Shown here piece by piece: positions 52,902 through 59,370 of a stretch of DNA of 64,000 bases (positions are counted from its first letter, which is position 1; the number at the start of each line of letters is the position of its first letter). A model generated the notes under the pieces. That model was not told the origin of the DNA. It made no database searches and was given only the letters and a program-made list of their open reading frames with translations. The stretch is taken from positions 1 to 64,000 of the forward strand of contig DVKC01000037.1 in assembly GCA_018716295.1 (NCBI GenBank). Direction: 5' to 3'. The position numbers and the translations under genes were made by a program. This DNA comes from Candidatus Avimuribaculum pullicola. GTDB lineage: Bacteria; Bacteroidota; Bacteroidia; Bacteroidales; Muribaculaceae.

Positions 52902-53171
52902 ATGGCAAAAGAATCGATGAAAGCCCGCGAGGTGAAGCGCGCAAAGTTGGTTGCAAAATATGCCGCCAAGAAAGCCCAACTCAAGGCAGAGGGCAACTAT
53001 GAGGCTCTGCAATTGATCCCGCGCAACGCCAGCGCAGTGCGCTTGCACAACCGCTGCAAGATTACCGGCCGTCCAAAGGGATATATCCGCCAATTTGGCA
53101 TCTCGCGTATCCAATTCCGCGAAATGGCATCAAAGGGTCTTATCCCAGGCGTAAAGAAGGCAAGCTGGTAA
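52902..53171 (+). CDS. rpsN: 30S ribosomal protein S14, zinc-free form
   Basis: An 89-aa protein of the long class without the CxxC zinc ribbon. [27 protein letters not shown] and LPRNA-type [52 protein letters not shown] fit. Only one cysteine remains (NRCKITGRP). A 187-bp gap follows. Confidence 0.97.
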
Positions 53172-53358
53172 AAAGGCGGCAACGTTCCCACCTCGGTGTG
53201 CAGCCGTCGGGCGGTTGCCCACAGAGGGAATCAACGAGTTATTAAAGAAAAAATACACAATAAAATAACTTAGTATTAAATATTGTTCGGCCACAAAGGG
53301 CAGGCCGGCCGCGCAAGGCGGACATGCCACGCTGAATCAATTTAAACAAATTATTTTT
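53172..53358 (+). promoter_or_regulatory. Structured rpsN-rpsH spacer
   Basis: The gap holds no gene. A long hairpin can form at 53185-53230: TTCCC/GGGAA, TGTG/CACA and CAGCCG/CGGTTG are nested around a 5-nt loop. A second GC-rich CGGCC/GGCCG pairing lies near 53290-53315. No TAnnTTTG box is present, so an RNA-level control element is more likely than a promoter. Confidence 0.35.
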
Positions 53359-53757
53359 ATGACTGATCCAATAGCAGATTATCTGACAAGACTGAGGAAT
53401 GCGATCAAGGCCCAGCACAGGGTCGTTGAAATCCCTTCTTCAAAAATGAAAAAGGAGATCACCAAGATCCTTTTTGAAAAGGGCTACATCTTGAACTACA
53501 AGTTTGTAGATGACGGAACTCCATCGGGAGCCATCAAGATAGCCTTGAAATACGACCCAGTTGACAAGGTCAACGCAATCAAGTGCTTGACGCGTGTTTC
53601 GCGTCCCGGATTGCGCCAGTACACCGGCTACAAGAATATGCCGCGCGTGTTGAATGGTTTAGGTATAGCTATCCTTTCTACTTCTAAGGGCATCATGACC
53701 AACAAGGAAGCCCTTGCACAGCAGATTGGTGGCGAAGTATTGTGTTACGTTTATTGA
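53359..53757 (+). CDS. rpsH: 30S ribosomal protein S8
   Basis: A 132-aa protein binding the central domain of 16S rRNA. TDPIADYLTRLRNAIKAQHRVVEIPSSKMKKEITKILFEKGYI and RVSRPGLRQYTGYKNMPRVLNGLGIAILSTSKGIMTNKEA are conserved. In E. coli S8 represses the spc operon; here it lies directly after the structured spacer. Confidence 0.98.
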   Translation: MTDPIADYLTRLRNAIKAQHRVVEIPSSKMKKEITKILFEKGYILNYKFVDDGTPSGAIKIALKYDPVDKVNAIKCLTRVSRPGLRQYTGYKNMPRVLNGLGIAILSTSKGIMTNKEALAQQIGGEVLCYVY

Positions 53758-59222: not shown

Positions 59223-59370
59223 TTACTATCACAACTCAGAACTTCTGATTTTTACATTACAAGAATTTCGAGGCTTTCATAGTGAATAGATTACATTCTT
59301 ACCAACCTCTCTGTAATCGCGGCTGCACTTGAAAGTGTCAGTTTAAATTATTAAAAGTAAAAAAACAGCA
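59223..59370 (+). promoter_or_regulatory. rpsK-rpsD spacer with inverted repeats
   Basis: No gene. GATTACA (59289-59295) and TGTAATC (59312-59318) form a 7-bp stem. A short TCAGA/TCTGA palindrome before a T-run lies near 59235-59255. S4 autoregulates through mRNA structures in several bacteria, so an S4 site is a reasonable guess. Confidence 0.3.

Follow-up and report, generated by a model that had tools for sequence, protein, structure and literature searches.

The rpsN–rpsH spacer and the hairpin before rpsH

The S10–spc–alpha cluster of ribosomal protein genes is oriented from left to right in the window (the whole 64,000-nt stretch of DNA analysed here), and a search with its S8 protein gave Candidatus Sodaliphilus among the nearest named relatives of this Muribaculaceae source. 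The spacer between the rpsN stop codon, which ends at 53171, and the rpsH ATG at 53359 is 187 nt long. This gap had been called unusual in the first-pass annotation and the gene cluster bears this out, since it is the longest of the 31 spacers in the 32-gene ribosomal cluster rpsG-rplQ, where the median is 17 nt. The second-longest (148 nt) lies between rpsK and rpsD and contains a match to the S4-Bacteroidia leader (Rfam RF03139) at 59289-59325 of the forward strand (44.6 bits, E 5.6e-6). The genes rplX and rplE overlap by 1 nt in the window, and a crude scan of the window saw no helix-21-like site at rplE. A group II intron match (RF00029, 45.7 bits) was also noticed near ribosomal protein genes in a contig of a Muribaculaceae isolate (L077:143-243).

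Spacers were gathered from 80 named Bacteroidales contigs and many further genomes. Some have almost no length and others extend over several hundred nucleotides, and their 5' part is not conserved even within the genus. By the S8 start codon, the comparison revealed the motif UUAAAUAUUGU-YCGG-loop-CCGR-AUYAAUUUAA. The consensus of the element is UUAA-AU-AUUG-UYCGG…CCGRA-UY-AAUUUAA. In it two helices flank an asymmetric core that hardly varies, and the whole measures 40–45 nt in most species. In the window the covariance model built for it (R1) matched with 48.6 bits (E 3e-7, model flanks 53271-53350). Between the end of the element and the start codon of rpsH lie 13 nt, and in most relatives the base of the hairpin is likewise found 10–15 nt before the AUG. 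The parts are listed in Table 1, with motif positions numbered as in the text below.

Table 1. Coordinates of the element, its parts and the neighbouring genes
Feature	Position	Strand	Basis or remark
rpsN, ribosomal protein S14, upstream neighbour	52902..53171	+	ORF
Conserved hairpin element, S8 leader candidate	53276..53345	+	covariance model R1, 257 loci
Outer helix 5' arm UUAA, positions 6-9	53276..53279	+	pairs with 53342-53345
5' bulge AU, positions 10-11, preferred register	53280..53281	+	may alternatively pair with 53340-53341
Core AUUG, positions 12-15	53282..53285	+	pairs with 53339-53341 and 53337
Inner helix 5' arm UUCGG, positions 16-20	53286..53290	+	pairs with 53332-53336, one G.U
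Variable apical domain, 41 nt	53291..53331	+	contains the second GC-rich hairpin of the first-pass annotation
Inner helix 3' arm CUGAA, positions 26-30	53332..53336	+	covariation as for 5' arm
Core 3' side U-C-AAU, positions 31-35	53337..53341	+	base counts
Outer helix 3' arm UUAA, positions 36-39	53342..53345	+	covariation
A/U-rich tract from hairpin to start codon, 13 nt	53346..53358	+	distance distribution
rpsH, ribosomal protein S8, directly behind the hairpin element	53359..53757	+	ORF and S8 searches
Second element (genus g199)	roughly 110-285 nt before rpsH		L023, L042, L047, L077, L137, L218, L312-L319

As judged from the aligned sequences, the best-supported structure has pairs 6-39 to 9-36, a bulge of A10 and U11, pairs 12-35, 13-34, 14-33 and 15-31, a bulge at 32, pairs 16-30 to 20-26 and the loop. 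A simple six-pair outer helix in which 11 pairs with 34 was replaced by this register, because the genomes L071 and L085 (A13–U34) and the Muribaculaceae genus g199 (C13–G34) all keep the pair 13-34 and 11-34 breaks in one of these lineages. The alternative pairs 10-35 and 11-34 may nevertheless form, so that both registers might exist. The core bases A12, U14 and G15 are invariant and the bulge at 10-11 is AU in 146 of 148 distinct arm combinations. U31 pairs with G15 as G·U (G–C in one genus), and the bulged position 32 can be C, U, A or G. The apical loop has 4–41 nt across loci and 4-6 nt in most relatives; in L168 (G559) it has grown to about 165 nt with both arms intact.

Covariation and single-sequence folding

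Covariation was evaluated in 45 sequences which had been chosen by sequence anchors, without a pairing criterion. In this set 98.2% of the cells were paired and 56 cells were double-changed (shuffles: 14.4), and all slid controls did far worse. With the refined structure these values became 98.8% and 58 (14.3 in shuffles). For the larger set of 257 element-bearing loci, which represent 200 distinct sequences, the parser applied a mild pairing criterion; when this criterion was removed, no inner position had more than three unpaired cells among 246 loci.

A phylogeny-aware null was also used, in which columns were simulated independently (300 simulations) on a tree of four neighbouring proteins with 142 taxa. 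Against it no column pair scored higher than the inner-stem pairs 18-28, 17-29 and 19-27, and 8-37, 20-26 and 13-34 each lay above all 300 simulations. Pair 8-37 switches from A-U to U-A (z = 39) and pair 13-34 is seen as U-A, A-U or C-G. A small number of non-stem pairs, most of them between neighbouring columns such as 40-41 and 2-3, also exceeded the null, with z of about 4–10 as compared with 18–39 for stem pairs, which indicates that the tree null is imperfectly conservative. Pairs 9-36, 12-35 and 14-33 never vary and are therefore simply consistent with the structure.

Two variant lineages, namely g199 (L137, L183, L229, L235, L238) and L071 with L085, read TACTGACGGG..CCCGTCGAG and AACAATG..ATAATTTTAA. 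Both have compensatory changes at 13-34, and g199 also has them at 16-30. Moreover, departures from pairing in the inner helix are nearly all G.U and not A.C on the coding strand, which speaks for this strand. The element thus has the conserved, covarying secondary structure by which ribosomal leaders are recognized, and it is practically certain that 53276–53345 is a conserved RNA element.

Folding of the single sequence gave a different picture. The fold of the whole spacer was not significant when compared with shuffled sequence (z = -1.48). The long hairpin proposed in the first-pass annotation at 53185-53230 does fold, no better than shuffles do (z = -1.37; 17 of 200 shuffles equally good), and most other species of the genus lack it in their spacers; as a functional hairpin it was rejected on these two grounds. 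A comparable GC-rich stretch with GTTCCC..GGGAA arms exists only in the closest sister genome (L090), and for this reason the hairpin is taken as a young lineage-specific insertion. The second GC-rich hairpin of the same annotation (~53290-53315) lies inside the conserved larger one and is itself only its variable apical part, not significant when folded alone (z = -0.43). The AU-rich arms had gone unmentioned there. They form the strongly non-random frame (53276-53290 and 53332-53345), which can be detected only by comparison of relatives. The idea of a structured spacer therefore survives for a smaller element by the start codon and not for the long hairpin; covariation and conservation of the stems in relatives, which had been named as the deciding observation, were found, though for 53276-53345. 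A repeat or mobile element in the spacer was rejected, as there is no second copy in the genome and the other matches are short chance ones of 14–45 nt.

Distribution in the Bacteroidales and a second element in one genus

The element is found in Bacteroides, Prevotella, Tannerella, Coprobacter, Paludibacteraceae, Dysgonomonadaceae and Muribaculaceae. In the genome to which the window belongs, R1 has exactly one match. Of 15 genomes from the same order 13 have a single match each, and about 380 genomes belonging to other orders of the class have none. In 46 of 247 genomes from across the order the model found a single match, in a heuristic search which may miss diverged copies and in which many records were metagenome-assembled; true copies below the reach of the scan were spotted by eye in G630, in G559 and in the genus of G520. 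All 46 matches are placed directly before rpsH on the same strand, with the model match ending 1–12 nt before the start codon. Such a constant place directly upstream of a ribosomal gene is a further characteristic of ribosomal leaders. In the inspected genomes of the other Bacteroidales families, which do not have the element, the rpsN–rpsH spacer is mostly short (15–55 nt), and it is longer in a few of them (G283, G498, G580).

Among the Muribaculaceae the element is present in 98 of 103 sampled genomes. The other five have lost it, from which it follows that the element is not essential. Loci without it are L013/L210, L035/L245, L077/L304, L305 and L218. The spacers of L013/L210 and L035/L245 have just 45-49 nt, and this suggests a clean deletion.

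In g199 a second conserved element was found in the same spacer, in single copy and in 10 of 11 genomes. Its consensus is GGTCCNYCGGGTAAGCCC(N)TCTGCGGGACCCCCCGR and it has no match in Rfam. In a by-eye comparison without statistics, its UAAG/AC part agrees with the S8 site in 16S rRNA at five of the seven nucleotides that are conserved there. L304, L305 and L218, all of g199, have lost the main element and kept the second one or a variant of it. If the second element binds S8, it would mark the spacer independently as a region of S8 control.

A candidate S8 leader and its relation to known systems

S4 and S8 are primary 16S-binding proteins with an autoregulatory role. The element is likely a cis-regulatory ribosomal leader, whichever its ligand. 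In E. coli S8 binds at rplE and is the proven autoregulator and repressor of the spc operon (PMC10931766). The first-pass annotation had pointed out that the spacer precedes the gene of this known autoregulator; the position and the E. coli precedent make S8 a plausible ligand. On this analysis the element is probably an intra-operonic leader by which S8 represses its own translation and that of the downstream genes. The S4 gene offers the same design, as the known leader RF03139 is found directly before rpsD in the second-longest spacer, and the S8 element fits this arrangement. Against S8 stand the core, which does not reproduce the helix 21 S8 site (5' AAG / 3' A-C-U), and the five of 103 Muribaculaceae that do without the element.

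In the proposed mechanism the mRNA would fold into the hairpin with its base 13 nt upstream of the rpsH AUG. Free S8, present when the protein outnumbers 16S rRNA, would bind the nearly invariant AU/G core and lock the hairpin, and the 30S subunit would be blocked from the A/U-rich start region of rpsH. Translation of rpsH and of the coupled genes rplF, rplR, rpsE, rpmD, rplO and secY would then fall. The ribosomes of Bacteroidota work without Shine–Dalgarno pairing (PMC9976891), so that the openness of the A/U-rich tract probably sets initiation, and a protein that stabilises the hairpin would be expected to hinder 30S loading.

The same structural and positional evidence would also suit a leader with another ligand from the operon, for example L6, L18, S5, L15 or S14, or a protein complex, and the core is unlike the S8 rRNA site. 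This explanation is rather unlikely, given that S8 is the product of the immediately downstream gene and the sole proven repressor of the spc operon. A hairpin for processing or stability, which parts rpsN and the upstream mRNA from rpsH and the downstream mRNA so that they decay differently and no protein is sensed, would agree with the intra-operonic position and with the long variable spacers that uncouple both genes. Nevertheless, a simple stability hairpin has no need of a nearly invariant internal core or of a spacing from the S8 start codon that is so tightly fixed, and we regard it as improbable.

The outer arms make an inverted repeat, as could be expected for a DNA-level signal (operator or promoter), an intrinsic terminator or an attenuator. 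These are disfavoured and very improbable, since the apical spacing differs between loci (4 to 41 nt), with the far larger insertion in L168, and G.U pairs are seen on one strand only. Promoter and terminator were rejected on counts. The Bacteroidota promoter pattern (TTTG, about 20 nt, TANNTTTG) was present in two of 288 upstream regions, and instead of a GC-rich stem followed by a U run there is an outer stem of A/U only, with mostly short T runs behind it (the longest of three or fewer in most loci). A chance structure in a long AU-rich spacer, with nothing functional in it, would explain why the single-sequence folding is not significant, but it is scarcely credible for 53276-53345, where covariation refutes it and where conservation and positional constancy speak against it as well; for the 5' hairpin at 53185-53230 it is probably right. 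S8 control of the element remains the preferred explanation. There is about an even chance that the element represents an undescribed RNA class through which the S8 of Bacteroidales acts at its own gene to control the distal half of the operon, with a core unrelated to the rRNA site.

Bacteroides is a tractable and abundant gut genus. In it the element would be a concrete, small and strongly conserved candidate S8 site. The state of this regulation in subtilis or in species beyond E. coli and Vibrio is unknown, and phylogenetic studies are not advanced (PMC10931766).

The comparison with known ribosomal leader families, which had been suggested as a check, gave no match in the spacer, and no family of Rfam 15 matches the main element above its gathering score. 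RF03139, whose only hit is the one before rpsD, was found neither in the S8 spacer nor in those of 20 relatives. The 20 new leaders in Table 1 of Eckert and Weinberg 2020 do not include one for S8, those of Bacteroidia being for S4 and L13 (PMC7247131), and a search of the open-access literature gave no description of a structured element upstream of rpsH in Bacteroidota. We rate the element as a ribosomal leader whose structure and whose place in the spc operon are both unlisted. The GUCCY-hairpin (Weinberg 2010), rated as uncertain and reported from Bacteroidetes and Proteobacteria (PMC2864571), is likewise a Bacteroidetes hairpin, and some copies of the element read GUCCG or GUCCC. It is not in Rfam, and an overlap with the element is unlikely.

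Close in design is the S4-Bacteroidia leader, also a short hairpin in the same cluster and lineage, whose next gene likewise encodes a primary 16S-binding protein. According to its describers it bears no meaningful resemblance to rRNA (PMC7247131), and the S8 element, too, has no obvious likeness to rRNA. The two differ in sequence and structure, as the S4 leader consists of a AGAUUGCA hairpin and a conserved 3' tail. The L13 leader of Bacteroidia and the S4 leader of Flavobacteria are likewise lineage-specific ribosomal leaders of Bacteroidota, with other genes and other structures.

The E. coli S8 operator, placed at the start of rplE, copies helix 21 of 16S rRNA (PMC10931766). It shares with the element the operon, the likely regulator and a translational site inside the operon and not at its 5' end. 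In contrast, the element is found before rpsH, two genes later and away from the rplE initiation region, and does not have the core A595 A596 G597 / A642 C643 U644 between two helices. Its own core, AUUG/UYAA, compares with UAAGUC/GAAACU in Bacteroidales 16S, and the resemblance to the rRNA site of S8 is weak. Mimicry of rRNA had been considered for the GUC/GAU shared with E. coli helix 21 and for a similar two-bulge topology. It was dropped as evidence because the 16S rRNA of Bacteroidales has GAAAC at this place, and because the element lacks the A595/A596 and A642–C643–U644 parts. If S8 is indeed the ligand, the element would be a convergent solution with the same likely regulator, a different RNA and another location in the operon; in that case two distinct RNA shapes would be recognised by S8, and control of the spc operon would have been re-invented elsewhere within it.
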